Assembly: GCF_000380185.1 (NCBI RefSeq)
Contig: NZ_KB904813.1
Location: 62,001 to 126,000 of the forward strand
Length of the DNA: 64,000 nucleotides
Source of the DNA: Thiofilum flexile DSM 14609
GTDB taxonomy: Bacteria > Pseudomonadota > Gammaproteobacteria > Thiotrichales > Thiotrichaceae
Direction of reading: 5' to 3'
Every line of letters starts with the position of its first letter. Positions within the stretch are counted from its first letter, which is position 1. The notes under the pieces were generated by a model. That model saw only the letters and a program-made list of their open reading frames with translations. It did no database searches and was not told the origin of the DNA. This document shows positions 14,596-63,784 of the stretch, one piece after another. The position numbers and the translations under genes are program-made.

Positions 14596-15393
14596 CTATT
14601 TCCGTAGAAAAGTAGGTAAAATAACTTCGCCTTCTAATACTTGGCGATAAGTACCATCTGCTTGTGGCATACCAAACAGCATATCTAAATTCTGGCGCAG
14701 ACGAGGATTAGTTTCGGGAGTGGCATGAATGACAGTCTCTACTTGGTAATGTCCATTGGGTGTTAGATTTAATTGGCTACCCGTAATATCAATGCTGGTT
14801 TGTTCTGAGGTGGCAAATCCTTTGATACCGGTTTCATCTCCCGTCAGTGCCATTTTGAAGGCTTTGCCTAAATTCATAGGCACACCGGTTAGTGTTTCAG
14901 GATTATCCCAACGAATTTGGCCTGTAAATTGGGGCAAATTTTGAGGTGACCAAGTGAAATCAAAGGCATTACCACGCAGTTGGCCTGCTAAATTCGGAAT
15001 AATAACGGCATAATCGGGGGCAAGTGATTTTACCACATTAGCCGGCAAATCCCATTCTAAGGTTTGACATTGCACCTGAGTGCGCCAGTTAAATCCACAA
15101 TTGCCCTGAGCATTACCCCCTAAGGTTTGTATTTGCCACTGAAAAGCAAGTTGACCCTGTAATAATAAGCGTGGTTGAAAATCCCAGCTAAATTGCCGAA
15201 TCATTGGGCTATTAGGGGCGGGGAGCTGAATATTATAAGCCTCTCCCTGCCATAATAAACCCTTGACCCCACCGACTTGTAAACCTTCTGGTTTAGGTAG
15301 GTAAGGCCAAATGACGCTAAGGGGGGCTAGCATCACTAGGCTAAGCCCATAACTCAATAAGCCGATCAATAAAAATAGCAGTATTTTTTTCAT
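14596..15393 (-). CDS. gspN: Type II secretion system protein N
   Basis: The 265-residue protein has an N-terminal membrane anchor (residues 4-24). A beta-rich periplasmic domain follows with the GspN signatures GLQVGGVKGLLWQGEAYNI near residue 38 and LAGQLRGNAFDFTWSP in the middle. GspN is an optional component of the type II secretion system, the machine that moves folded periplasmic proteins across the outer membrane. It is last in the minus-strand K-L-M-N series and overlaps gspM by 4 bp. Confidence 0.88.
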   Translation of the reverse strand: MKKILLFLLIGLLSYGLSLVMLAPLSVIWPYLPKPEGLQVGGVKGLLWQGEAYNIQLPAPNSPMIRQFSWDFQPRLLLQGQLAFQWQIQTLGGNAQGNCGFNWRTQVQCQTLEWDLPANVVKSLAPDYAVIIPNLAGQLRGNAFDFTWSPQNLPQFTGQIRWDNPETLTGVPMNLGKAFKMALTGDETGIKGFATSEQTSIDITGSQLNLTPNGHYQVETVIHATPETNPRLRQNLDMLFGMPQADGTYRQVLEGEVILPTFLRK

Positions 15394-15872
15394 CGTTGTA
15401 GGGTGATATTGGCATTAACCAAGCCGTTATCACGAGTAGGGGTTATATTAAATTGTACCGCATAGGCCTGATGATGCAGCTCTAGCGCACCTAATAAAGA
15501 AGCAATCTGATTAAAAGGGGCTTTTTGTAAGCGTAAATTAACAGCTCCTGTGGCGGTTTCACTTTGGCTGAGCAAAATATCAGGCCGATCTAATGCATAG
15601 CGTTTTAATAAAGGCTCTACAACATAAGCCAGCTTTCCATTACTAGCAGATGGGAGAGTGCTAGGTTGAGATTGTGAGGCGATCAGCGGGGCTAATTGTG
15701 CGAGTTGTGCTTGATAGGCCAGTGCATCGGCATGGCTCTGATCTAGCTCTTTTTTATAGTTTAATAAGGGGGTGACGGCGTAAAACCATATTACGGTAGC
15801 AAGTATCAAAAGACTGCCAATAATCACCCATAAACGCTCACGCGGAGCAAGAGTATACCACCATGCTTTCAT
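15390..15872 (-). CDS. gspM: Type II secretion system protein M
   Basis: The 160-residue protein has the GspM layout. A short cytoplasmic start (TLAPRERLW) precedes one transmembrane segment (residues 17-34), a coiled coil and a small ferredoxin-like periplasmic domain. GspM pairs with GspL in the inner-membrane assembly platform. It overlaps both gspL and gspN by 4 bp, indicating translational coupling. The start PRERLW is a family hallmark. Confidence 0.88.
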   Translation of the reverse strand: MKAWWYTLAPRERLWVIIGSLLILATVIWFYAVTPLLNYKKELDQSHADALAYQAQLAQLAPLIASQSQPSTLPSASNGKLAYVVEPLLKRYALDRPDILLSQSETATGAVNLRLQKAPFNQIASLLGALELHHQAYAVQFNITPTRDNGLVNANITLQR

Positions 15873-17098
15873 CCAACAGGCTCCGCTATAAGATTAAATT
15901 CACCCACCACTTTATTCGCATCGCGCTGGTAATTAATATTAACCTCGCGCTTTAAAGCCAGGCTTAGTACTTTTTCTAGCTCTGGAATGACGGCGGTAGA
16001 TTCTGAGGTAAAGCGTATAGTGAGTTTATTTTGATTCCAATTAATGCTTTGTAAAGTAATAGGTTGTTGCGGTAATACTTGAGCTAATATTTTTAATAAA
16101 GGTAAAGCACTCGGTGAGCTATTCGCGGTATTATTGAGCTGGAGTTTTTTTACCTCGGCATTAATTAATGAGCCGAAATTTAAATCGGGATCGATCTCTC
16201 TGGCTTGGGGGAAAAGTGTTTTAAATTGGGCAATATTTTGTACTTGTAGTGCATCAGTTTCGCTTTGTAAATTACGGATTTCCAGCCCTTGTAAGGTGAG
16301 GGCTATCATAGCCGTTACCGCACCAACCCAAGCGACCCCTTGCCATTTTTGCCATATATTAGCGAGTTGCGAGTGTGCTTGTGTTTTAAAACCCTTCATT
16401 ACATTAAGCGGTAAGGCGCTTTGAATATCAGTAGCTTGCAGCAGTTGTGTTTGTGCTATTGCATCATAGGCCAGCACAAGCTGTGGCGTGTCTGGAATAG
16501 GCGGGGTATGCTCTAACACCCGTAGGTGGATGGGCTGTTCTTCCGTACCTTGTGTGAGCCATTGATTGAGCTGTAAAGGCCATGTACTAGCCGAGGTATA
16601 ATAACCAGCAGTCGCCGTTTGTCTTACCCACAGACCCTGCTTACCCAACCACGCGGTTTGATACCCATCCGTAACAGGCAACGCCATGAAATCTGGCAAG
16701 ATAGCGGTGGGCACAATCCCATTATGATGTAAAAAATCCAACCATAATTGCAGGCGAGCATGTTCAATGATCGCGACCTGATATAACCCTTCCTCACTAT
16801 TTAAACTGTAATGGGCATAGTGTTGTTCCTCAGGATCGCTCATGAGTTGCTCTTCTAAGGCAAAGGGCAAAGCTTGGGCAAGCTGGCGTTGATTACGAGT
16901 TTTCAGTGTTACCGTGGTAATCAGTACTTCACGACTAGGAATTAGTACGACAATTTGGCGTGACTGTTTCAACAGTGCCGGTACATGTTCCCATGGAGCA
17001 CTTTGCCAAGACGCATTCTCCTCCTTGTTTAGCAGGGCATAATCTAGCTCTAATGGCTCAGGCGCAGTCAGGCGCAACACTAGCATAATCTTGCTCAT
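15869..17098 (-). CDS. gspL: Type II secretion system protein L
   Basis: The 409-residue protein has an actin-like cytoplasmic domain (about residues 1-235; IVVLIPSREVLITTV, QALPFALEEQLMSDPEEQHYAH). A transmembrane segment lies around residue 255 and a periplasmic ferredoxin-like GspL domain follows. GspL links the secretion ATPase GspE to the assembly platform. Length and layout are normal for GspL. It sits 12 bp after gspK. A second, differently built GspL/PilN-like gene occurs at 54.06 kb. Confidence 0.9.
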   Translation of the reverse strand: MSKIMLVLRLTAPEPLELDYALLNKEENASWQSAPWEHVPALLKQSRQIVVLIPSREVLITTVTLKTRNQRQLAQALPFALEEQLMSDPEEQHYAHYSLNSEEGLYQVAIIEHARLQLWLDFLHHNGIVPTAILPDFMALPVTDGYQTAWLGKQGLWVRQTATAGYYTSASTWPLQLNQWLTQGTEEQPIHLRVLEHTPPIPDTPQLVLAYDAIAQTQLLQATDIQSALPLNVMKGFKTQAHSQLANIWQKWQGVAWVGAVTAMIALTLQGLEIRNLQSETDALQVQNIAQFKTLFPQAREIDPDLNFGSLINAEVKKLQLNNTANSSPSALPLLKILAQVLPQQPITLQSINWNQNKLTIRFTSESTAVIPELEKVLSLALKREVNINYQRDANKVVGEFNLIAEPVG

Positions 17099-17110
17099 GG
17101 CTTTATTAGG

Positions 17111-18220
17111 CTATATAGAGGAGTTAAACAGAGTGGTTTCATCAGCCGCCTTAGTGTGCTCCGTTGTGTACTCAAATCGGCGCATTAAAATATGAATCTC
17201 TCCCGTATCGGTACGTTCTAATAAAGTTACGGTATTAAGACGTACCACACCAATTTTTATAAGCCCACGTAGACGAAAATAATGCGAAGTGACACCAAAA
17301 ACATCAGACCATTGTAGTGAGTTAAATTCTTCACCTTTAGCCGCTTCATTATCTTTAGCAGGTTTGTAGTCAGGGTTAGGAACTATAGATTTAAAGGCTT
17401 CCTTTAAATTAGTACTGTTATTAGCGATAAAACTATTTAGGCTATTTTGATCAAAGGGTTGTGCCTGACGTGTGCTGAGAATAGCCTCTACATCGTCAGG
17501 TACTAAAGCCGCTAATAAGGCCTCTGATGCGGTATTAATATTAATTTTAGTAAAGGTTTCACTAGGTAAGGCTGTCGCTGTGGTGATTTTTAAGAGCTCA
17601 TCTAATTTTTCACGTGTTTCTTCAGGAGCTAGTGAATCAAGGCGCACTAAAAATAATTCACTCGGATCGGTAAAGGGTTGATTGGCCGCAAAATAAGCGG
17701 GGGTACGGGTTAGATAAAAATCAGCCTCAGCACTATTATTATTGCGCGTGGTAGTATCCTTATCCATCCAGTCGGTCACACTAAACCGAAAATAGTCCGG
17801 CAAGCTTTGTGCTTCAAGCAGCTTAGCAAATAAGGTTTGGCCTAAATCGGTGAGCTTATCCTCTTTGTTTAATAAGGTATTGAGATTAAATAAGCCCTGT
17901 AAGTCCTCAATCCTACCAGAAAAGCTACCAATGACGGTCTCACCGTCTTGAATAGGCAGTTCTGGTAAGGGAATAGCCCAAGTATCCGTGAGGCTATCGG
18001 TTTCATTGAGTTTTAAATCGCGCTGTAGCCATAAGCCTGCCATTTGCTCAATACCACTGCTGTATTGATAGGCGCGTTCGAGTTGCTGCATATTATTTTG
18101 AATTTTTACATCATAATGCTGGGTACTAATAACCGCCGCCGCTATCATTACAGCGATAGACATCACTAATAACGCAGTGAGTAAAGCAATTCCCTGTTGA
18201 GTATGCGGCAGCTTAGGCAT
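17111..18220 (-). CDS. gspK: Type II secretion system minor pseudopilin K
   Basis: The 369-residue protein opens with a prepilin-type signal (QQGIALLTALLVMSIAVMIAA) that the prepilin peptidase would cut after the glycine. A large GspK domain follows (IEDLQGLFNLNTLL; FSVTDWMDKD; INTASEALLAALVPDDVEAIL). GspK caps the pseudopilus tip with GspI and GspJ. The GspG-J pseudopilin genes and gspE/F are not adjacent here, since slt and rsgA precede it. Confidence 0.9.
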   Translation of the reverse strand: MPKLPHTQQGIALLTALLVMSIAVMIAAAVISTQHYDVKIQNNMQQLERAYQYSSGIEQMAGLWLQRDLKLNETDSLTDTWAIPLPELPIQDGETVIGSFSGRIEDLQGLFNLNTLLNKEDKLTDLGQTLFAKLLEAQSLPDYFRFSVTDWMDKDTTTRNNNSAEADFYLTRTPAYFAANQPFTDPSELFLVRLDSLAPEETREKLDELLKITTATALPSETFTKININTASEALLAALVPDDVEAILSTRQAQPFDQNSLNSFIANNSTNLKEAFKSIVPNPDYKPAKDNEAAKGEEFNSLQWSDVFGVTSHYFRLRGLIKIGVVRLNTVTLLERTDTGEIHILMRRFEYTTEHTKAADETTLFNSSI

Positions 18221-50880: not shown

Positions 50881-51034
50881 CTTCAGTAAACTCCTTACTG
50901 AGGTAATGATATAGTTTGGTCTATCCAAACACTAGGTTCAGTACAACAAGCAGACTCGCGCTTGTCAAGAGCTGAAGCTGAGATGAATTGAAAAATAGGA
51001 TAAAAGGTCGTGTTAACAGGTGAGTAGTAAAATA

Positions 51035-51970
51035 ATGCAGCAAAAAACTCGACTATCGGGCAAATCATTTTTACATCCCCGCCATTGGCTGACATGGTTG
51101 GGGTTAGGTGGGTTATGGCTGGTGGTGCAGTTACCTTGGTCGGTACAAATGGGGCTAGGTAAGTATCTAGGTTTACTCATGTATTACCTATTAAGTCAAC
51201 GTCGGCATGTTTGCCAAGTCAATATTCAATTGGCTTTTCCTGAGCTAAACGCAGCCCAACAAGAAAATCTGGTTAAAAAACATTTTGTTTCTTTAGGGCG
51301 TGGGCTATTAGAAACCGCTTTGAGTTGGTGGGGGGATGGTGAGCGCTTAAACCAGCAAACAGTAATCAAGGGGTTGGAGCATTTGCAGCAAGCACAACAA
51401 CAAGGTGGGGTTATTTTGCTCAGTGCTCATTTTACTAGCTTAGAGCTAGGTGGTCGTCTATTAGCAAAATTTATTAACCTGCATGTCGTTTATCGCCCGC
51501 ATCAAAATCCAGTTATTGAGTGGCGCGTGGCAAGATTACGCCAAAAACGTTATGGAAAGGCGATTCCACGCGATGATATTCGGGAGATGCTGCGCAGTTT
51601 GCAACAGGGACAAGTGGTATGGTATGCCCAAGATCAGAACTTTGGTCATAAAAATAGTGTATTTGCTCCGTTTTTTAGTATACCGGCGGCTACGAATACT
51701 GCTACAAGTCGTATCAGTCGTTTAGGTAAAGCCAGCGTAGTACCCTTCTTCACCGTGCGCACTGAGACAGGTTATCAATTACAGTTTTATCCAGCGTTGG
51801 AAAATTTTCCCAGCGAGGATGTTTTGAATGATACCATTCAGATCAATCAGGTGATTGAGAGCCAAGTACGATGTTATCCAGAACAATATTTATGGACACA
51901 TCGGCGCTATAAGGATCGACCTGAGGGGGGTAACCGTTATGAGTTGCCCGTAAAAACAATGACTGAGTAG
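51035..51970 (+). CDS. LpxL/HtrB-like lipid A acyltransferase
   Basis: The protein of about 311 residues is a late lipid A acyltransferase adding laurate or myristate to Kdo2-lipid IVA at the inner membrane. It has a membrane segment near residues 25-45, the HX4E catalytic pair in SAHFTSLELGGRLL near residue 130, VYRPHQNPVIEWRVARLR near residue 158 and WYAQDQNFGHKNSVFAPFF near residue 205. ATG 51035 is assumed. GTG 51020 is also possible. slyD follows 42 bp later. A second, related gene begins at the window end. Confidence 0.88.
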   Translation: MQQKTRLSGKSFLHPRHWLTWLGLGGLWLVVQLPWSVQMGLGKYLGLLMYYLLSQRRHVCQVNIQLAFPELNAAQQENLVKKHFVSLGRGLLETALSWWGDGERLNQQTVIKGLEHLQQAQQQGGVILLSAHFTSLELGGRLLAKFINLHVVYRPHQNPVIEWRVARLRQKRYGKAIPRDDIREMLRSLQQGQVVWYAQDQNFGHKNSVFAPFFSIPAATNTATSRISRLGKASVVPFFTVRTETGYQLQFYPALENFPSEDVLNDTIQINQVIESQVRCYPEQYLWTHRRYKDRPEGGNRYELPVKTMTE

Positions 51971-54061: not shown

Positions 54062-55105
54062 ATGACGCTAACTAGCAATTTTAACTATATTATGCAGTGG
54101 TGGGGTAGCGGGCTGTTGAAAGGTTTGCCTTCTTCACTACGGCGTTTGGTGCGCAGCGAGCGACCTCGAGTCGTGCTGCAACTCCATCATCAAATGCTAG
54201 AGGCATTCTGGAAGCCCGATCAAAAGCTCATTCCTTTGGGTTCTTATTCACTGCGTACGCCTATTGATCTGTTTAGTAAACCGCCTAAAACGATTAAGGG
54301 CAAAAAATATCTGATTGAAGTACAGCTCAATCCGAAAAATGGCCTATTGCTAGAGCAGCGCTTTCCAGAGGCCATTCAAGAAAATCTACGCCAAGTTATT
54401 GGCTATCAACTGGATCGTATTAGTCCCTTTTCTCCAGAACGTGCTTATTACTCGGCAGAGCTGCTGAATCATGATCGCAAAGCTAAGGAAATCAATGTCA
54501 ATGTACAGGTAATACCTAAGCAAACAGCGGATCAAGTGATTGAGCAATTAAAAGAGTTAGGGGTTCCAGAGGTTCATCTCTTATCGGTTGTGGGTAGCCC
54601 ATCTTCTGCGCCTATTGGTCAAACGACTACGACGGACTTAAGTCAAAGCTGGTCTTGGATTCCATTAGGTTTTATGGTGACCGCATTAGTGGCTTCTTTG
54701 GCTGCGCCAATTGCCTATAAATATCGGCGTGCGGAACAAATCGATGCTGCATTGGCTCAGGTTCGCCAACACTCAGCCGCTCAATTACAAATTCGTGAGC
54801 AACTCACGGCAGCAGAGGATGCTATGCATTTCTTGACCGAAAGACGTCGCACCTCGCCCGTGGCTTTGGACGTAGCTGAGCACTTATCAAAAATTTTACC
54901 TGCAAATACGTGGTTGGATCGTTTGACGTTGAATGGCACCGAGCTTTCTATTCGTGGCGAGTCATCGGCTGCCTTGGATTTGATTGATCTATTGGAAGGA
55001 TCACCTATGTTATCCGAAGTGAAATTTAAATCCCCGGTAACCCGTACTAAGGACAGTAATAACGATAAATTCCAGATTCAAGCCAAGGTGGAGGTCAAGT
55101 CATGA
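54062..55105 (+). CDS. GspL/PilN-like secretion assembly protein
   Basis: The 347-residue protein resembles GspL/PilN-type inner-membrane assembly proteins. An N-terminal cytoplasmic part (about residues 30-190; QVIGYQLDRISPFSPERAYY is typical of the actin-like end) leads into one membrane segment near residues 200-220. A coiled coil and a PilN-like ferredoxin domain follow (LSKILPANTWLDRLTLNGTELSI). It is shorter than the GspL at 15.87 kb. It heads a four-to-five gene operon ending in a secretin, overlapping the next gene by 4 bp. Confidence 0.82.
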   Translation: MTLTSNFNYIMQWWGSGLLKGLPSSLRRLVRSERPRVVLQLHHQMLEAFWKPDQKLIPLGSYSLRTPIDLFSKPPKTIKGKKYLIEVQLNPKNGLLLEQRFPEAIQENLRQVIGYQLDRISPFSPERAYYSAELLNHDRKAKEINVNVQVIPKQTADQVIEQLKELGVPEVHLLSVVGSPSSAPIGQTTTTDLSQSWSWIPLGFMVTALVASLAAPIAYKYRRAEQIDAALAQVRQHSAAQLQIREQLTAAEDAMHFLTERRRTSPVALDVAEHLSKILPANTWLDRLTLNGTELSIRGESSAALDLIDLLEGSPMLSEVKFKSPVTRTKDSNNDKFQIQAKVEVKS

Positions 55106-55692
55106 ATGATTTACTCATGAAGCACCAAAGCTTATTGGCATGGAGTTTATTGATTCTATTAGTATTGTGCTTATTGGTGTTTGGTGTCTTACCGGCTTGG
55201 AGCTATTCCAATCAGCTTAGTGACCGTATTGAAACCGGTTATCGGCAGTTAGCAAAAATGCGCCAGATCGCCAATACCACGCCAGAGTTTATGGCAGAGT
55301 ATGAGCGTGTTAAGAGCCAAGGTTTAGATAAACTCTTTTATCCAGAAGGGATGACGTCTGCCCAAGTAGCTAAAGAGTTACAGCAACAAGTCAGCGGCGT
55401 TATTACCCGTGGTAATGGACGTATCTTAAGCTCGGAAGTAGTGGAGGATAATAAATCTGAGGAGGAAGCTTCAACGGGTTATCAAAAGGTGACGGTACGC
55501 GCTACTTTTCAAGGCTCAATGCCCCTAGTGCGTCAAGTACTCCATCAGGCTTATCAAGCACGTCCCCTGATTTTTGTGGATAGCTTAGAACTATATCCCT
55601 TAGACAAAGATAAAACGGCTGATTCGAGCCAAAGCCAATTGGCTAAAGCAGACGTATTAATTACGACCTATTGGCGAGGGGGAAGTAAATGA
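55102..55692 (+). CDS. GspM-like secretion assembly protein
   Basis: The 196-residue protein has the GspM/PilO arrangement: a membrane segment (residues 12-32), a coiled coil and a small periplasmic ferredoxin-like domain (YQKVTVRATFQGSMPLVRQVLHQAY). It likely pairs with the preceding GspL-like protein in an inner-membrane platform. It overlaps both neighbours by 4 bp. It is distinct in sequence from the GspM at 15.39 kb. Confidence 0.8.
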   Translation: MNDLLMKHQSLLAWSLLILLVLCLLVFGVLPAWSYSNQLSDRIETGYRQLAKMRQIANTTPEFMAEYERVKSQGLDKLFYPEGMTSAQVAKELQQQVSGVITRGNGRILSSEVVEDNKSEEEASTGYQKVTVRATFQGSMPLVRQVLHQAYQARPLIFVDSLELYPLDKDKTADSSQSQLAKADVLITTYWRGGSK

Positions 55693-56522
55693 AAAAGTGG
55701 ATTAGTCCGCCGATTCAGTGGTTGTTTTGGCTAACTGGCTTAGGCGTTATCGGGTTAGCCGCGTGGAACTTATATACCCTTTGGGCGATGACTGAAGAAA
55801 GCCAAGCTAAGTCAACGGTCAGTGTTAGCTTACCGGATCTGAGTTTATTAAATGCGCCAGGTGTTGCAACCTATCAGGATTTTATTGATAAACCCCTCTT
55901 TTGGTCGAGTCGTAAAGTACCTGCGCCGCCAGTAGTAGTGGCTGCTGCTGCACCTCCGCCTGAGCCAGTAGAGCCGCCTATTGATAAAACCTTACCGGAT
56001 GGACGCTTGGTAGGTGTGATTGATTTAGGTAAAAAGTCCTATGGCATTATGCGCACCAGCACTTCAGAAAACCACTCCCTACATGTAGGGGATAAGTGGG
56101 GGAATTGGGTCGTTACCAAAGTCAAAAAAGACAAATTGACCTTAAAACTGGGTGATGAGAACCAAGATTTATTGTTAATAGCAGATTTTAATGCACCCAA
56201 GCAAAATCCAGCCATGTTAGCGAAGAAGGCACAAGATCAACAGCAACAAGCCCAAGCCGAAACATTAGCGCGTTTAAAAGCGCTTCAGGCCGCTGCCGCC
56301 CAAAATATCTTAACAGCAGCGGCGGAGCCAAAAGCAGGCATGCCTAATGAAGCTTTTCCGTCTACAGAACAGGCTCCGCCTATTTTATCAGTGAAGGATG
56401 CTTTAGAAGCACGTAAGCGCCTAATGGAATCACGCTGGGGCAGTACCGCTAGTGGTGGCAGGCCAAGTGCTAATCCATCGCGCAGTGCTCTACCTAATCC
56501 AGCCGATAGTGCTCTTAATTAA
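55689..56522 (+). CDS. GspC-like periplasmic linker protein
   Basis: The 277-residue protein has one N-terminal membrane segment (residues 11-32), a Pro/Ala linker (about 78-100) and a small beta domain (LPDGRLVGVIDLGKKSYGIM; LHVGDKWGNWVVTKV) resembling the homology region of GspC that contacts the secretin. A long Ala/Gln-rich tail replaces the usual PDZ domain. Its position between GspM- and GspD-like genes supports the GspC assignment. Confidence 0.7.
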   Translation: MKKWISPPIQWLFWLTGLGVIGLAAWNLYTLWAMTEESQAKSTVSVSLPDLSLLNAPGVATYQDFIDKPLFWSSRKVPAPPVVVAAAAPPPEPVEPPIDKTLPDGRLVGVIDLGKKSYGIMRTSTSENHSLHVGDKWGNWVVTKVKKDKLTLKLGDENQDLLLIADFNAPKQNPAMLAKKAQDQQQQAQAETLARLKALQAAAAQNILTAAAEPKAGMPNEAFPSTEQAPPILSVKDALEARKRLMESRWGSTASGGRPSANPSRSALPNPADSALN

Positions 56523-56604
56523 GCTAGGGTAAGTGCAATTACTGCTTTAATAAAAAATAAAACCATTGACCTACAAAAATAATAAAAATAATGGGGTTAG
56601 CTTT

Positions 56605-58869
56605 GTGAACTATAAAATTATCACAATAGGGCTAGTGAGTGTGTCGGTATTAATGTCGGCCTGTTCTTCGATCCGTAACAGCCCAGGGTATCGTAGTAGC
56701 CATATGGTTACTGAGGAAGGTTTTCAACGCAGTGGTGCCGTGCGAGAAGTGGATGGACGCATGCTAGGTATGGGAGAAGGTATGCATATGCCAGCTAAGC
56801 GCTCTAATTATGCTCCTACTAGACCCAATCAGTATGCCAATGCACCGACAACTAGACCTCAGGCCAAGCCGGGTTCTCAGCAGCAAGATACAGAGCTGAT
56901 TTTAGGACAGCAGAATTATTATCATGAGCCAGCAGATAATAGTAATACTAGTAGTGTAAAAGGCAAAATGCGCCGCAAATCAGGCGACGGGATAGCCCTG
57001 AACTTTGAACGCGCCAGTATTCGTGAGGTAGTGAAAGTCGTCTTAGGTGATTTATTAAAACTGACTTATACCATGGAGCCGGGGGTTGAGGGTGAGGTTA
57101 CGATTAGCTCTAGTGAGCCTATACCTCAAGCGAGCCTCATCCCCACACTGGAGTCTTTATTAGCGACTCAGGGTGCCGTTTTATATAAAGATGGACCTAG
57201 TGGTTATCGTGTAGCGGCTCGTGCCAATATGAAAGGGCGGGGGTTTAAACCCAGTTTTGGTAAGTTAAAACCGGGCTATAGTATTCAAGTGGTTCCGCTG
57301 CGCTATATTCCAGCAGTGGAAATGCAGAAGATTCTAGAGCCATTAGCGAATCCAGATGCTTTTGTCCGCGTGGATAGTAGTCGTAATTTATTAATGCTAG
57401 CTGGTACGGGTTCGGAGCTGGCTAATCTGATGTCGACGATTAGTACCTTTGATGTGGATGTATTACAAGGTATGTCAGTAGGCATTTTCCGCATTAAGAA
57501 TGTGGAGGCCGGTATCGTTGCGAAAAGCATGGATACCCTCTTTGGGGAGGGAGGCAGTAGCTCTATGGCGGGGATGATTAAGATCGTACCCCTTGAGCAT
57601 ATGAATAGCTTAATGATTATCTCCGCAAGTCCCGACTATTTACGCGATATGCAAAGTTGGGTGAATCGTTTTGACCGTACCAGTCCTACCGCAGGACAAC
57701 AGCTTTATGTGTATCGGGTACAAAATGGTAGTGCTGAAAACTTGGCTGAAATGCTCAATCAGATTTTTTCGGGTAAGAGCAGTAGTAAAAAGAAAAGTGC
57801 TGTCTCTAGTCTAGCACCAGGTCTAGAGCCTGCCACCGTAGGGGGCGCGATACCACCGGCTAATGGTGCTGCACCTAGCCCTGATAATCCAACCGCCGTC
57901 GCGGTCGCCGTCGCAGGCAAGCCAGCGGTAACAGCAGATGGCGGTGTGGTGATTGATAATACGGATGATGCGCGGATTGTGGCAGATAAGACCAATAACT
58001 CTTTAATGATTATGGCGACTGAGTCGACTTATCAGCAAATTATTGAGGCGGTTAAACGTATTGATGTAATGCCGATGCAGGTACAAGTCGAGGCTTCCAT
58101 TATGGAAGTGAGCTTGTCAGATAATTTACAGTTTGGTCTACAGTGGTACTTTAAAAATAGTAACCTACTAGGACAAGTGGGTGAGGGATTAGTCTCGTTA
58201 GGTGGGATTGCAGGTGGAGCAGGATTCTCGTATTCCTTAAGCGACCCTACAGGCTCTTTAAAGAATATTATTAACATGTTGGCTAAGCAGTCACGAGTGA
58301 GAGTATTGTCCTCGCCTTCGATTTTAGTGTTAGATAATCAGCCGGCTGAAATCCGTGTGGGTAATCAGCAACCGATTGAGACTAAAACCAGTAGCAGTGG
58401 TACGACTGGCACGGATACCTATACCTATCAGTATAAAGATACGGGGGTTTCACTCAAGGTAACACCTCAGGTCAATAACAATGGTCTGGTGAAAATGGAA
58501 ATCCAACAGGATGTGACGGATCTAGGTGAGCGAGATAGCGTTAATAATCAGCCTACCTTTATGCAGCGCAGTATTAAGAGTTCCATTGTGGTGCAAAGTG
58601 GCGAAACCATCGTCTTAGGTGGCCTGATTCGTGAGAATAAAACGGATAGTAAGCAAAGCGTACCTATTCTGTCGGATATGCCGATTGTAGGTAAGTTATT
58701 TAGCTCAGAGGGTGGAACCTCTACTCGTACCGAGTTACTGGTATTGATTACGCCTACCGCTATTAGGGATCAATCCGGGTTGACTAAAACAGGTGAGGAA
58801 ATGCGTGAGCGGATGCAGCGTCTCATGGCGAATGACCGTTTCCTACAGCAATTAAAAGGACAACGTTAA
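56605..58869 (+). CDS. gspD: Secretin, GspD-like outer membrane pore
   Basis: The GTG at 56605 gives a lipoprotein signal (NYKIITIGLVSVSVLMSAC), so the pore is probably lipidated. A reading from 56566 lacks a sensible start. The protein of about 754 residues has an unstructured linker, N-domains (FERASIREVVKVVLGDLLKL; VVPLRYIPAVEMQKILEPLA; VYRVQNGSAENLAEMLNQIF) and a C-terminal secretin core (VLSSPSILVLDNQPAEIRVG; SGETIVLGGLIRENK; TELLVLITPTAI). A Ser/Lys- and Ala-rich insert lies near residues 400-445. It forms the outer-membrane channel for this cluster. Confidence 0.9.
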   Translation: MNYKIITIGLVSVSVLMSACSSIRNSPGYRSSHMVTEEGFQRSGAVREVDGRMLGMGEGMHMPAKRSNYAPTRPNQYANAPTTRPQAKPGSQQQDTELILGQQNYYHEPADNSNTSSVKGKMRRKSGDGIALNFERASIREVVKVVLGDLLKLTYTMEPGVEGEVTISSSEPIPQASLIPTLESLLATQGAVLYKDGPSGYRVAARANMKGRGFKPSFGKLKPGYSIQVVPLRYIPAVEMQKILEPLANPDAFVRVDSSRNLLMLAGTGSELANLMSTISTFDVDVLQGMSVGIFRIKNVEAGIVAKSMDTLFGEGGSSSMAGMIKIVPLEHMNSLMIISASPDYLRDMQSWVNRFDRTSPTAGQQLYVYRVQNGSAENLAEMLNQIFSGKSSSKKKSAVSSLAPGLEPATVGGAIPPANGAAPSPDNPTAVAVAVAGKPAVTADGGVVIDNTDDARIVADKTNNSLMIMATESTYQQIIEAVKRIDVMPMQVQVEASIMEVSLSDNLQFGLQWYFKNSNLLGQVGEGLVSLGGIAGGAGFSYSLSDPTGSLKNIINMLAKQSRVRVLSSPSILVLDNQPAEIRVGNQQPIETKTSSSGTTGTDTYTYQYKDTGVSLKVTPQVNNNGLVKMEIQQDVTDLGERDSVNNQPTFMQRSIKSSIVVQSGETIVLGGLIRENKTDSKQSVPILSDMPIVGKLFSSEGGTSTRTELLVLITPTAIRDQSGLTKTGEEMRERMQRLMANDRFLQQLKGQR

Positions 58870-58872
58870 ATC

Positions 58873-59268
58873 ATGAAACAGTGGTGGATAGTATTAGTAG
58901 GATTAGGGTTGTTAGTGGCGTGCTCTGCTGAGCCACCGGAGCCTTTAGTCAAAGAATTGGCGCAACAACGTTGGACTGCACTGTTGCAGTCCAATCCAAC
59001 CAAAGCCTACCAGTACTACACCAAAGCTTTTCAGGACACTACCCCCTTAAAGCAGTTTGAGAACTCGATACGTGGGGTAGGGCTTTGGAGGTCAGCACAA
59101 GTAATGGATGCCCAGTGCAAAGATTCACAATGCCAAGTGAATGTTAAGGTGACCGTGGCGATGAAGATGCGCGGTCTACCAGAGCCGATAGAGACGAGTG
59201 AAGTAATACAAGAAACATGGATGAAGGATACCGCTTGGAAGTCAGAGTGGCGTTACGTAAAAAATTAG
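58873..59268 (+). CDS. Small lipoprotein after the secretin
   Basis: The 131-residue protein has a lipoprotein signal (MKQWWIVLVGLGLLVACSAE, lipobox LVAC). A compact alpha+beta domain (YQYYTKAFQDTTPLKQFENSI) with one cysteine pair (CKDSQC) follows. It starts 3 bp after gspD, so it belongs to the same transcript. It may act as a secretin partner (pilotin-like), but no such family is recognisable. Confidence 0.75.
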   Translation: MKQWWIVLVGLGLLVACSAEPPEPLVKELAQQRWTALLQSNPTKAYQYYTKAFQDTTPLKQFENSIRGVGLWRSAQVMDAQCKDSQCQVNVKVTVAMKMRGLPEPIETSEVIQETWMKDTAWKSEWRYVKN

Positions 59269-59373
59269 GATATTTATCTGGCATAATGTTGTATTATCTA
59301 TAGATTAATAAATTAGATTAAGTCAGACACTCCAACAATAAATTATAAAGATAAGTTTTTAGGAGGCACTCAG

Positions 59374-60882
59374 GTGTTTAAACAAAAAAAGCTCGCTTTT
59401 GGGGTGGCAGCAGGATTTCTGGTTGCCGCAGGAATTTTTACTGCTGTCCAAGCGGTGTATGTCAACTCTGATGGAACAGGACAAGTGTTATTGTTCCCTT
59501 ACTTTAATGCTAATCCAGGGTATGTCACTAATATTAACCTAGTTAACTCTACTAATGAGACCAAGGCAGTCAAGATTCGTTTCCGCGAAGGCAAAAATAG
59601 TAATGATATTCTCAATTTTAATATCTATATGTCACCGGAAGATGTCTGGACAGGTACGATTCGTAAAGATGCCAATAGCGATGCGGGTGCATTTACCACA
59701 CTAGATCGTACTTGTACTATGCCTGTGCAACATGCCGCCGATTGCTCAAGTCCGAATAAAGATCGCTGTGAGGTGATGAAAACCTTCGATGGTAAAAATA
59801 TTGTCTATGAAAACAAAGATACCCGTGAAGGTTATGTTGAAGTGATTGAAATGGGGGTTGTGACCGATCCTAAAATTCAAGAGGCAGTCAAACATGTGAA
59901 TGGTAAACCTGCTAATTGTCAGGCTGTTTCTGATGCTTGGTTAACAACAGGTGCCTTTGCTTCGGGAACAGGTGCGGCTGCGGTAGGTTTAAAAGCGCCT
60001 ACGGGTGGTTTATTTGGTTCTTCTGCTGTCTTGAATATTGCAGAGGGTGCGGCGTTTGCGATTGATCCGGTGGCGATTGATAATTACAGCACTCAGGCTC
60101 AACACTACCGTCCCGATCTTTATGAAGAGTATTTATTACCCTCTTTAGCGTCCGGCAATGTGACACAAAGCACGATTACCGTTCCTAAATCAAGTGGTGA
60201 GTCTGATCTGGTCGTCACCAATTGGAAGCAACAAAGTCAAGATCCTTGTACGGTAGAGGGCACATCCTGTGGTACTAACCCGTACCCCATGGCGCATGTG
60301 TTGGCAGTGCCTTATATCATGAACGAATACTTCCTTGATCCTACCGATGGCTATGATGGTCATACCGACTGGGTTGTAACTTTCCCGATGAAAAAACATG
60401 GTATCCATCAGGCTAGTACCGATGTTGTAGCAAAAATTGATGGTCTCTACGACCGTGAGGAAGCGCGTGCTTGGGGCTTGAATGCTACTCAAGATAAATA
60501 CTTTGGTTTCGTAACCGACGCGAAAGCCGGTACTTTTGGCCCAGAGGCTAGCTTAACTCGTGAAGTGAATGTCTTGAGCTTTGTGAGTACCGATCCTTCA
60601 TATGATTTGAATCGCACCGTGTTCTCAAGTCCAGCCTTAAAAGCAGTCAGTGCAGGGCCATTCGTACATGGTTGGGCGCGGATTACCTTCCCGAATTATA
60701 CCTTAGGTGGAGCCTTTACCTCATCGAATGCGTATGGTGCTAATCCGTATAATTATAAAGCAGATCACTTTATTTATAATGGTGTGCCAACCTTAGGTTT
60801 CGCGGCTATTGAGGGCAATGTAAGCGAAAATGCTCATGCTCGCTTTGGTGATGCGATACCGCATAAAACACGTCGCTATTAA
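59374..60882 (+). CDS. Exported surface-type protein of unknown function
   Basis: The gene starts with GTG after a strong AGGAGG. The 502-residue protein has a signal peptide (VAAGFLVAAGIFTAVQAVYV) and a mature N-terminus GTGQVLLFPYFNANPGYVTN with NLVNSTNETKAVKIRFREGKN, which looks like a beta-sandwich. Six cysteines occur in pairs (RTCTMPVQHAADC; CEVMK; NCQAV; DPCTVEGTSC). I have seen similar exported proteins in Gammaproteobacteria but cannot name a function. It lies 105 bp after the secretin operon, making it a candidate substrate. Confidence 0.75.
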   Translation: MFKQKKLAFGVAAGFLVAAGIFTAVQAVYVNSDGTGQVLLFPYFNANPGYVTNINLVNSTNETKAVKIRFREGKNSNDILNFNIYMSPEDVWTGTIRKDANSDAGAFTTLDRTCTMPVQHAADCSSPNKDRCEVMKTFDGKNIVYENKDTREGYVEVIEMGVVTDPKIQEAVKHVNGKPANCQAVSDAWLTTGAFASGTGAAAVGLKAPTGGLFGSSAVLNIAEGAAFAIDPVAIDNYSTQAQHYRPDLYEEYLLPSLASGNVTQSTITVPKSSGESDLVVTNWKQQSQDPCTVEGTSCGTNPYPMAHVLAVPYIMNEYFLDPTDGYDGHTDWVVTFPMKKHGIHQASTDVVAKIDGLYDREEARAWGLNATQDKYFGFVTDAKAGTFGPEASLTREVNVLSFVSTDPSYDLNRTVFSSPALKAVSAGPFVHGWARITFPNYTLGGAFTSSNAYGANPYNYKADHFIYNGVPTLGFAAIEGNVSENAHARFGDAIPHKTRRY

Positions 60883-60898
60883 GTTTATTCATTCAAGG

Positions 60899-60928
60899 GA
60901 CGGATTAAGTAGGGGTACTTAGTCCGTC
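60899..60928 (+). terminator. Hairpin after the exported-protein gene
   Basis: GACGGATTAAGT pairs with ACTTAGTCCGTC (11 Watson-Crick pairs and one G-U) around a 6-nt loop, 16 bp after the stop. There is no strong T-run. It separates this gene from the parvulin-like gene 24 bp later. Confidence 0.55.
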
Positions 60929-60952
60929 TAGCTATTATGAGGCTGTTGAAAA

Positions 60953-61816
60953 ATGTCATTATCATTGAGATCCTTATTACAGGGAGTCGTATTAGGTTTA
61001 ATGGTGCCCTGTCTGGTACAAGCAGAAGATGCTTGGATCATGAAAACCCCCGAATGGGAGTTATCTAAAGCGCAATATGAAAGCGCACTCACCGTCAAGG
61101 GAACCGACCCTAAAACCCTCACAACACCTGCACAACGTCGTCCTATATTACAAGATTTATATATCCGCGAATCCTTATTGCAACAGGCACTCAAACAAGG
61201 TTTAGATAAAAAACCTCAGATTGAGCAGCAGCTAGAGGAGATGCGTAAAGATTTATTGGCTCGTAGTGCGCTTGAAGCTCACATTGATCAAAATGCCCCC
61301 GACTTTACCCAACGAGCACAAGAGCTTTATCAAGCCCGCTTAGCTACCGTTTATACTTTCCCGCTACGCCTAAAGTTACAGTTAATCCAAATCAATACCC
61401 CCTCGCCAGAGAGCCAAACTAAGACTAAACAACAACTAGAAACGCTGCGCCAAGATTTACAGCACAAGAAACTAACCTTTGAGCAAGCAGTGGAGCAATA
61501 TAGTCAGGCCGCAGACAAAGCACTGACACAGGCGGGCGAGTGGTATAAGGCCGATCAACTCCCAAGTGTAGTATTTGATGCTGGCGTCCAGCTTAAAGAT
61601 AGTGAGCCACTGAGTACCGTACTCAATGCGGATAAGGCTATGTATCTAGTTAAATATTTAGAGCGGCGCGAACCAGAGGTTCTCAGTTTTGATCAAGTCA
61701 AAGATGAGCTAATCGCCAGTCTTAAGACCGAATATCGGCTGGGGCAGCAACAAGTATTACTGCAACAATTACGCCAACAATTTGAACAAAATGCTCAGCT
61801 CAATGATGCCCCTTAG
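60953..61816 (+). CDS. SurA/PpiC-like peptidyl-prolyl isomerase
   Basis: The 287-residue protein has a signal peptide (cut near VQAED), helical N- and C-terminal parts (IRESLLQQALKQGLDKKPQIEQQLEEM) and a central parvulin-like domain (LKLQLIQINTPSPE, then LTFEQAVEQYSQAADKALTQAGEW). This is the layout of SurA/PpiC-type periplasmic foldases. The parvulin domain looks divergent, so isomerase activity is uncertain. It precedes the polysaccharide exporter genes by an overlap. Confidence 0.75.
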   Translation: MSLSLRSLLQGVVLGLMVPCLVQAEDAWIMKTPEWELSKAQYESALTVKGTDPKTLTTPAQRRPILQDLYIRESLLQQALKQGLDKKPQIEQQLEEMRKDLLARSALEAHIDQNAPDFTQRAQELYQARLATVYTFPLRLKLQLIQINTPSPESQTKTKQQLETLRQDLQHKKLTFEQAVEQYSQAADKALTQAGEWYKADQLPSVVFDAGVQLKDSEPLSTVLNADKAMYLVKYLERREPEVLSFDQVKDELIASLKTEYRLGQQQVLLQQLRQQFEQNAQLNDAP

Positions 61817-62600
61817 CGGGACTAAGGAACGAAAGCAGTGGAGCACTTTATTTGGGCAATTAGTCTATCTAGATCTACGCACACGTTATTTTAATTCGCG
61901 TTTAGGGCTAGCCATTCTCATTGCTCAACCTTTGGCATTATTAGTGGTTTATAGCTGGATCTTTGGTGATTTAATGCAATTAAAGCATCAAGGAGGGCAA
62001 GACGGGCATTACTTTAGTGAGTATTTATTGGCAGGTTTAATTGCCTTTAATACCCTCGCCGAGGTATTCACTCGTGCTCCTAATCTACTATTAGAGCGGC
62101 GTGAATTATTATTGAATACCGCTTTACCTGCGGTGCTGGTTCCTTGGGTGCTGGTGGCTAGTTCATTATTATTGGAAGGGATTAGTATTGCTTTACTCAT
62201 TATCTGGATGAGTATTCAAGGACTGAATCCATTGTGGGCGTTAGGGTGTTATTTGCCTTGGTTAGTGATTCGCCTATTATGGAGCAGTGCGGGCGCGGCC
62301 TTATTAAGTGTATTGGGGGTCGTGCTCACGGATTTACGCCAAGTATTAAGTGCAATATTAGGTATTTTATTATTAATTACCCCCATCTTTTATCGTCTAG
62401 AACAAATACCTAGTCATTGGCAAACGGCATTATTGTGGAATCCCTTCACCTATTTAATTCAAGGCTATCAAACCGCTTTAGTGCAAGGTGAGTTTAAGGT
62501 ATTGGCTTGGCTGCCGGTGCTATTGGCTTCACTAGTCGTTTGGTATCTGAGTGTTAGTATGGCACGACGCTTATTACCTAAAATACGCTATGTGCTATGA
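61803..62600 (+). CDS. ABC-2 polysaccharide export permease (Wzm-like)
   Basis: The protein of about 265 residues has six hydrophobic segments and the ABC-2 pattern of polysaccharide exporters: YLDLRTRYFNSRLGLAILIAQP at the start, IFGDLMQLKHQGGQDGHYFSEYLLAGL, and ITPIFYRLEQIPSHWQTALLWNPFTYLIQGY near the end. Starts at 61791, 61803 or 61806 all overlap the previous gene. The ATPase gene overlaps its end by 4 bp. It likely exports an O-antigen or capsule-type glycan. Confidence 0.85.
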   Translation: MMPLSGTKERKQWSTLFGQLVYLDLRTRYFNSRLGLAILIAQPLALLVVYSWIFGDLMQLKHQGGQDGHYFSEYLLAGLIAFNTLAEVFTRAPNLLLERRELLLNTALPAVLVPWVLVASSLLLEGISIALLIIWMSIQGLNPLWALGCYLPWLVIRLLWSSAGAALLSVLGVVLTDLRQVLSAILGILLLITPIFYRLEQIPSHWQTALLWNPFTYLIQGYQTALVQGEFKVLAWLPVLLASLVVWYLSVSMARRLLPKIRYVL

Positions 62601-63784
62601 AAGCCCTTCAATTACAGCAGATTTCAGTAGGCTATCCACAGTATCCTCGCCCCCTTGATTTGCTTTGGGAGTGGCTAACAGGTACTCAACGCCATACCAC
62701 CCATTATGCTTTGCAAGATATTAGTTTTGAGCTAGAGCAGGGCAGTACTTTGGGTATTGTAGGGGATAATGGCGCGGGTAAAAGTACTCTATTGCGCGTG
62801 CTTGCAGGTACTTTACAGCCTACCGCTGGAGTTTGCTTGGCTACAGATCAGCGTGCAGCCTTACTAGAGTTAGGGGCGAGTTTTCAGTCGCAATTATCGG
62901 GCTTAGATAATATTCGTCTAGGCTTAGCCTTGCGGGGCTTGAGTCATGCGCAGATTAATGAATATCTTCCCACCGTGATTGAGTTTGCTGAATTACAACC
63001 TTGGATCGAGCAACCCCTCAAAACCTACTCTAGTGGCATGGTGATGCGCTTAGGTTTTGCCTTAGCTACCGTTTTGTCACCCCAGCTCTTGATTGTCGAT
63101 GAAGCGCTCTCTGTAGGTGATCAGCACTTTCAAAAGAAATCCTTGCAGCGTATTAAGACTATTGTGGCAGAGGGGGCGAGTTTAGTGTTTTGCTCCCATA
63201 ATTTGTATCAAGTACGGGAATTATGCCAGCAAGCTATTTGGTTAGAGCAGGGAAGGGTTCGTCAGTTTGGTAAAGCGCAAGCCGTAGTCGATGCCTATCA
63301 AACCGCTTGCCGCGAACGTGAAGTCATAACCCCAGCCGTCATCAGCCCTCAAGCCAATAATCACCTTCAATCTCAGCCCTTTATTCAATCAGCTCAATTA
63401 CTCACAACGGAAAATAAGGTCTTTAATACTGGCGCTAAATTTGGTGTGGAGGTATTAATAAATCTCAATAGGTATCCGGTGCAGGAGGTACATTTAGGGA
63501 TTGTGATTCGGCGCAATGATGAGATTCAATGCTATGGCATGAGTACTTTGCACGAGGGAATTGCTTTGCAGGGGCATGACTATGCCAAGGTTCATTATGT
63601 AATAGATGAGTTACCCCTATTAGCCGGTGATTATTGTTTAGAACTATGGCTGATTGATCAAACCGGATTGCATGTCTATGACTCGCGCGAGCGCTGCTGT
63701 CATTTCCAGGTACAACAAAGCTCCCAGCGTCAAGGGATCGGGGTCTGTCAATTGCCGCATCGTTGGAAGGTATACGGTCTATGA
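62597..63784 (+). CDS. Polysaccharide export ATPase with Wzt C-terminal domain
   Basis: The 395-residue protein pairs with the Wzm-like permease. It has Walker A GDNGAGKSTLLRVLAG near residue 56, LSGLDNIRLGLALRG, signature TYSSGMVMRLGFALA near residue 143, Walker B LLIVDEALSVGD near residue 165, and HNLYQVRELC. The C-terminal 150 residues (VEVLINLNRYPVQEVHLGIVIRRNDE) form a Wzt_C-type beta-sandwich, which in O-antigen exporters binds the terminal sugar cap. It overlaps the next gene by 4 bp. Confidence 0.9.
   Translation: MKALQLQQISVGYPQYPRPLDLLWEWLTGTQRHTTHYALQDISFELEQGSTLGIVGDNGAGKSTLLRVLAGTLQPTAGVCLATDQRAALLELGASFQSQLSGLDNIRLGLALRGLSHAQINEYLPTVIEFAELQPWIEQPLKTYSSGMVMRLGFALATVLSPQLLIVDEALSVGDQHFQKKSLQRIKTIVAEGASLVFCSHNLYQVRELCQQAIWLEQGRVRQFGKAQAVVDAYQTACREREVITPAVISPQANNHLQSQPFIQSAQLLTTENKVFNTGAKFGVEVLINLNRYPVQEVHLGIVIRRNDEIQCYGMSTLHEGIALQGHDYAKVHYVIDELPLLAGDYCLELWLIDQTGLHVYDSRERCCHFQVQQSSQRQGIGVCQLPHRWKVYGL

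Follow-up and report, generated by a model that had tools for sequence, protein, structure and literature searches.

The gene row at positions 54062 to 60882 of the window (the whole stretch of 64,000 nucleotides analysed here) raises the question of what a short run of type II secretion system (T2SS) genes serves when no ATPase, pseudopilin or prepilin peptidase gene adjoins it. The gene listing of the window and profile searches bear out this absence, which had led the first-pass annotation to call the set partial. We find it highly likely that these genes are the L-M-C-D half of a split but complete Xps-type T2SS, accompanied by the NpdA-family S-layer protein that is probably the main cargo of the system. 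The features are listed below, with system A denoting the classical T2SS of the genome and system B the Xps-type one; family counts refer to 78 npdA-family loci.

14596 to 18220, minus strand: gspK-L-M-N of the separate classical system A, not of system B (T2SSN, T2SSM, GspL TIGR01709, GspK NF037980)
51020 to 51970, plus strand: lipid A acyltransferase of the LpxL/M type, a recurrent neighbour (PF03279, 2.4e-75; family in 21/78 loci)
54062 to 55105, plus strand: gspL/XpsL-like platform protein of system B with a PilN domain (PF05137, 7.5e-14; same family in 27 npdA-family loci)
55102 to 55692, plus strand: gspM/XpsM of system B (NF040576 XpsM, 104.9 bits, cut-off 60)
55689 to 56522, plus strand: GspC/XpsN-like inner-membrane protein of system B, a weak assignment (NF041515, 1.6e-4, below cut-off; placement between M and D conserved among relatives)
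56566 to 58869, plus strand: lipidated GspD secretin of system B (TIGR02517, 488.7 bits; lipobox LMSA|C; likelier start GTG 56605)
58873 to 59268, plus strand: small npdA-associated lipoprotein with a predicted NTF2-like fold (lipobox LLVA|C; AF2 pLDDT 88.8; family in 43/78 loci)
59374 to 60882, plus strand: probable npdA-family S-layer protein, 502 aa, Sec-type signal peptide, probable T2SS substrate (family membership, context, codon bias, AF2 pLDDT 87.6)
60898 to 60929, plus strand: strong hairpin, 14-pair stem, no T-run (fold of the region −23.4 kcal/mol, z = −3.8, 0/200 shuffles as good)
60953 to 61816, plus strand: PpiC-type peptidyl-prolyl isomerase (PPIase), a conserved neighbour (PF00639, 1.3e-4; family in 36/78 loci)
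61782 to 62600, plus strand: wzm, polysaccharide ABC-2 exporter permease (PF01061, 9.6e-13; family in 28/78 loci)
62597 to 63784, plus strand: wzt, exporter ATPase with a polysaccharide-binding C-terminal domain (PF00005, Wzt_C PF14524; family in 34/78 loci)

All six genes that the first-pass annotation had described in the cluster (L, M, C-like, D, lipoprotein and a 502-residue exported protein) are in place, with profile matches for L, M and D, the last well above the TIGR02517 cut-off of 351 bits. Its account of an operon joined by 3- to 4-bp overlaps holds for L/M and M/C, which overlap by 4 bp, but the D and lipoprotein genes are separated by 3 bp, and C and D by a wider gap. This C-D gap measures 43 bp if gspD begins at the listed TTG and ∼82 bp if it begins at the GTG at 56605, which is the likelier start since it matches the start position in relatives. 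The exported-protein gene does follow after 105 bp and is preceded by an AGGAGG ribosome site. We call the third protein GspC-like only weakly, from its position and architecture: it scores 21.6 bits with NF041515 (cut-off 150), and an HR-like segment aligns with E. coli GspC by hhalign at an E value of only 0.13.

The same-strand gene row extends past 60882 into the PPIase, wzm and wzt genes. Beyond the window, reading of the sequences (with no family profile) points to another acyltransferase-like gene and to glycosyltransferase-like genes. The hairpin directly after the exported-protein gene may mark a transcript end or act as a stabiliser, and possibly separates expression of the S-layer gene from that of the downstream genes; promoter and terminator scans gave hits at chance level only.

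Genome-wide searches recovered the parts that the cluster lacks. A T2SSE profile search returned three full-length GspE/PilB-type ATPases (contigs C6, C35 and C1) and four shorter matches in the PilT range, and secretins are encoded on C6, in the window (C67) and, as a PilQ-like protein, on C24. GspG genes lie on C35 and C9 and a GspC gene on C11. The genome thus has two GspE/F pairs besides PilB/C, two GspD proteins besides PilQ and two GspG proteins. Its only Peptidase_A24 gene is on C1, close to PilB/PilC, and the prepilin peptidase is therefore shared by both systems. System A comprises C (C11), D-E-F (C6), G-H-I-J (C9) and the K-L-M-N block of the window; its D, E, F, G, H, I and J proteins score above the classical NCBIfam cut-offs, and its C matches below the cut-off. 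System B comprises E-F-G-H-I-J-K, which sit together on C35, and the L-M-C-D genes at 54062 to 58869.

We class system B as Xps-type because its M, H and I proteins fit Xps models rather than classical ones. H scores 89.5 bits with NF047827 (XpsH) against 44.3 with GspH, and I scores 65.1 bits with NF047828 (XpsI) against 34.2 with GspI, although both Xps scores fall below the strict cut-offs of their own models. Secretin, ATPase, F, pseudopilins G to K, L, M and a C-like protein (the weak member) are thus all present in the genome, which has two complete, dispersed T2SSs. The annotated set is therefore not partial when the whole genome is considered, whereas the proposed duplication of the L- and M-type platform proteins stands, the K-L-M-N block at 14.6 to 18.2 kb being real and part of system A. 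The suggestion of a dispersed system proved half right: the cluster is dispersed, but it is not the other half of that block, which belongs with the classical C, D-E-F and G-H-I-J genes. The proposed search for E, F, G, H, I, J and a second gspD found each of them in two systems; since every gene from D to M is present twice, a single dispersed system is ruled out.

Two features of these systems stand apart from the question of completeness. The GspD of system A (G000:C6, L011:5024-8191) is unusually long at 1,055 aa, with several near-repeated N-domain segments (repeated 'IPLRFANAEEMAQTLQ...' units). The N terminus of the system B GspE (G000:C35, L012:9965-11686) matches an MshE-related c-di-GMP-binding motif (NF053729, 36.3 bits, cut-off 38), and the same profile search gave no NF053729 match for the GspE of system A. 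From this below-cut-off motif, S-layer export might be regulated by c-di-GMP.

Three observations place the window half and the C35 half in one system. In Sedimenticola, Wenzhouxiangella and others, the genes form one contiguous run, E/F-G-H-I-J-K-L-M-(C)-D-lipoprotein-NpdA. In trees of D, E, F and K (with some long branches, and only quick trees for E and K), system B groups with npdA-linked clusters and system A with the T2SS of E. coli K-12. Finally, gspM and gspK of system B and a close NpdA occur all together in 25 of 63 genomes of the order and are all absent from 35; the three partial cases are G035, which has no close NpdA, and G040 and G046, which have M only and are both incomplete genomes. 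As this order-level co-occurrence comes from one clade, it represents few independent events. The two halves share a contig in 11 genomes, where 57 kb to 2.6 Mb separate them in linear coordinates, which indicates that the split is a feature of the clade.

What the system carries is suggested by the 502-residue protein. It has no match in Pfam or NCBIfam and no credible match in a PDB sequence search or in fold searches of PDB and viral libraries; its AF2 model is confident (pLDDT 87.6, pTM 0.89). Close relatives (∼54 to 62% identity) occur in Thiothrix and Thiolinea, and the wider family spans gamma and beta lineages. PMC10765051 reports that deletion of NpdA, which has 12 gsp genes upstream and a mature size of 52.4 kDa, abolishes the S-layer of Paracidovorax citrulli, and its tables include among the carriers Thiothrix species, Thiofilum flexile, Wenzhouxiangella limi, Thauera butanivorans and Gilvimarinus agarilyticus. 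We recovered full-length relatives of the 502-residue protein in seven species named as carriers there, including Thiothrix species, W. limi, T. butanivorans and G. agarilyticus. Like NpdA, the protein has a signal-like N terminus and gsp genes upstream, and its mature mass is 51.5 kDa when cut after residue 27. It probably belongs to the NpdA S-layer family, an assignment based on shared named species, neighbourhood and size. The codon bias of the gene (rank 8 of 105, near the ribosomal mean) mildly fits high expression.

In Marinicella, Alcanivoracaceae and related genomes, between two and five npdA-family stretches stand in tandem (L090, L092, L103, L104, L107, L110 and L111). In genus g8, one npdA-family gene (G054:C4:3591541-3594523) matches in pieces with an internal stop, and in the other genomes of that genus the gene is intact or has long insertions, up to 716 aa.

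NpdA and the Xps-type T2SS are also associated at the level of the class. In a class survey of 370 genomes, 16 had an NpdA-family match, 64 an XpsM match and 12 both (Fisher's test, 3e-7), and XpsM was present in five of the six genomes with strong NpdA matches outside the organism's own family (P = 6e-4). We also picked 13 genomes whose fetched npdA-family locus held no XpsM-type gene, and 12 of them had XpsM over the cut-off somewhere, compared with 35/370 in the class sample. The nominal P value of 4e-11 is too good, because the 13 genomes were picked by hand, include related groups (four Thiodiazotropha-like and three Marinicella) and include one, Gilvimarinus, in which T2SS genes turned out to lie near npdA. 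The effect is clear in direction, if not in size: where npdA is unlinked to a T2SS, the genome mostly still has an Xps-type one. One genome, G431, carries an NpdA-family protein with no XpsM match. Remote relatives (26 to 32% identity) are also present in members of the order that lack system B; the wider superfamily is therefore not tied to this system in every case.

How specifically system B serves NpdA is where the main alternative arises. System B could be a general second T2SS for many enzymes, with NpdA as just one substrate among several and its gene a chance neighbour. Xps-type systems without NpdA are indeed common (52 of the 64 XpsM genomes in the class survey), but the reverse dependence is strong, with XpsM in 12 of 16 NpdA genomes. 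The gene order D-lipoprotein-NpdA recurs across gamma and beta lineages, and the classical system A is present for general secretion. We regard a general role as rather unlikely and, judging from the recurring gene order and the co-occurrence, take the exported protein as the probable dedicated substrate, in line with the dedicated secretion branch that the first-pass annotation had considered. Far less credible is the suggestion that the cluster, having lost a pseudopilus and an ATPase of its own, relies on those of system A. The absence of E-K genes beside L-M-C-D would fit such borrowing, but we reject it because the complete Xps-type E-F-G-H-I-J-K set exists on C35, leaving only the prepilin peptidase shared, and in relatives this set is found where the window half occurs.

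The exported product could also be something other than a crystalline S-layer, such as a filament sheath or another surface structure. The nearest relatives come from filamentous sulfur bacteria (Thiothrix, Thiolinea), several of which are sheathed. The accessible portions of the NpdA literature show no S-layer image of Thiothrix or Thiofilum. Against a sheath, NpdA family members are S-layer proteins wherever deletion or purification has been carried out, and 15 of 16 further carriers showed an NpdA-like S-layer (PMC10765051). We therefore consider a sheath or similar structure improbable and retain the S-layer reading.

Xanthomonas Xps genes are contiguous and serve secreted enzymes; system B resembles that T2SS in the fit of its M, H and I proteins to the XpsM, XpsH and XpsI models and in its lipidated secretin. 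The NpdA/gsp loci of Delftia acidovorans Cs1-4 and P. citrulli (PMC3110197, PMC10765051) are like the present locus in the Sec-type signal, the ∼52-kDa mature size and the T2SS directly upstream, but the T2SS studied here is split, with E-K on another contig. The accessible portions of these papers do not discuss lipoprotein, PPIase or Wzm/Wzt neighbours, and the main text makes no mention of Wzt. The Sps cluster of Aeromonas hydrophila AH-1, considered dedicated to S-layer export, runs SpsE-M, Orf2, SpsD, VapA, Wzm, Wzt (PMC4413209). It is thus like system B and its neighbours in the order of E to M, a small Orf2, D, the S-layer protein, Wzm and Wzt, a likeness of gene order, but it is contiguous and inserted in the O11 LPS/O-antigen cluster (PMC4413209), whereas system B is split. 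In Pseudoalteromonas tunicata, the gene for the differently named S-layer protein Slr4 also lies directly downstream of a T2SS cluster, a likeness to the npdA locus in gene position (PMC7821379). The pairing of a T2SS with an S-layer is thus already described in relatives, and the locus is well explained as a known type.

The recurrent neighbours add to this picture. Counts among the 78 npdA-family loci (lipoprotein 43, PPIase 36, Wzt 34, Wzm 28) are not independent, because contig ends cut many of the loci and 15 come from close relatives of Thiothrix. The lipoprotein adjoins npdA also in loci of Methylococcales and Thiodiazotropha where T2SS genes are not adjacent, which indicates that it tracks npdA rather than the T2SS. 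A pilotin (GspS/AspS) role for the lipoprotein is disfavoured: its predicted fold is NTF2-like, no pilotin was among the listed fold matches, and the system B secretin has its own lipid anchor.

Our best reading, drawn from gene content, homology, linkage and co-occurrence, is that the locus would be a dedicated S-layer export system coupled to an LPS anchor. With its signal-like N terminus, NpdA would enter the periplasm by the Sec route, and system B, which has an ATPase, a pseudopilus and a lipidated secretin of its own and shares the prepilin peptidase, would carry it across the outer membrane. There it would assemble as a surface lattice, as its family and the P. citrulli deletion suggest. 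Gram-negative S-layers that have been studied in detail bind LPS (PMC8559796), and in vitro assembly of the Delftia S-layer protein required LPS (PMC3110197). The layer would probably be held by the LPS O-polysaccharide exported through the adjoining Wzm/Wzt, with the lipoprotein and PPIase as likely periplasmic or outer-membrane helpers in NpdA folding, hand-over or anchoring. We entertain, without favouring it, the wider possibility that the dedicated Xps-type T2SS, NTF2-fold lipoprotein, PPIase and ABC-exported O-polysaccharide form a widespread module inherited and built together, in which S-layer and LPS anchor would be one unit and the lipoprotein an NpdA-specific hand-over or anchor factor.

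For the NpdA proteins, a family without a solved structure, these results close an apparent gap in the Thiothrix literature: Thiothrix was reported without gspEFGHIJK beside npdA (PMC10765051), and these genes are present, far from npdA. With a lipoprotein, a PPIase and a polysaccharide exporter conserved next to npdA, S-layer export and LPS anchoring become testable together.
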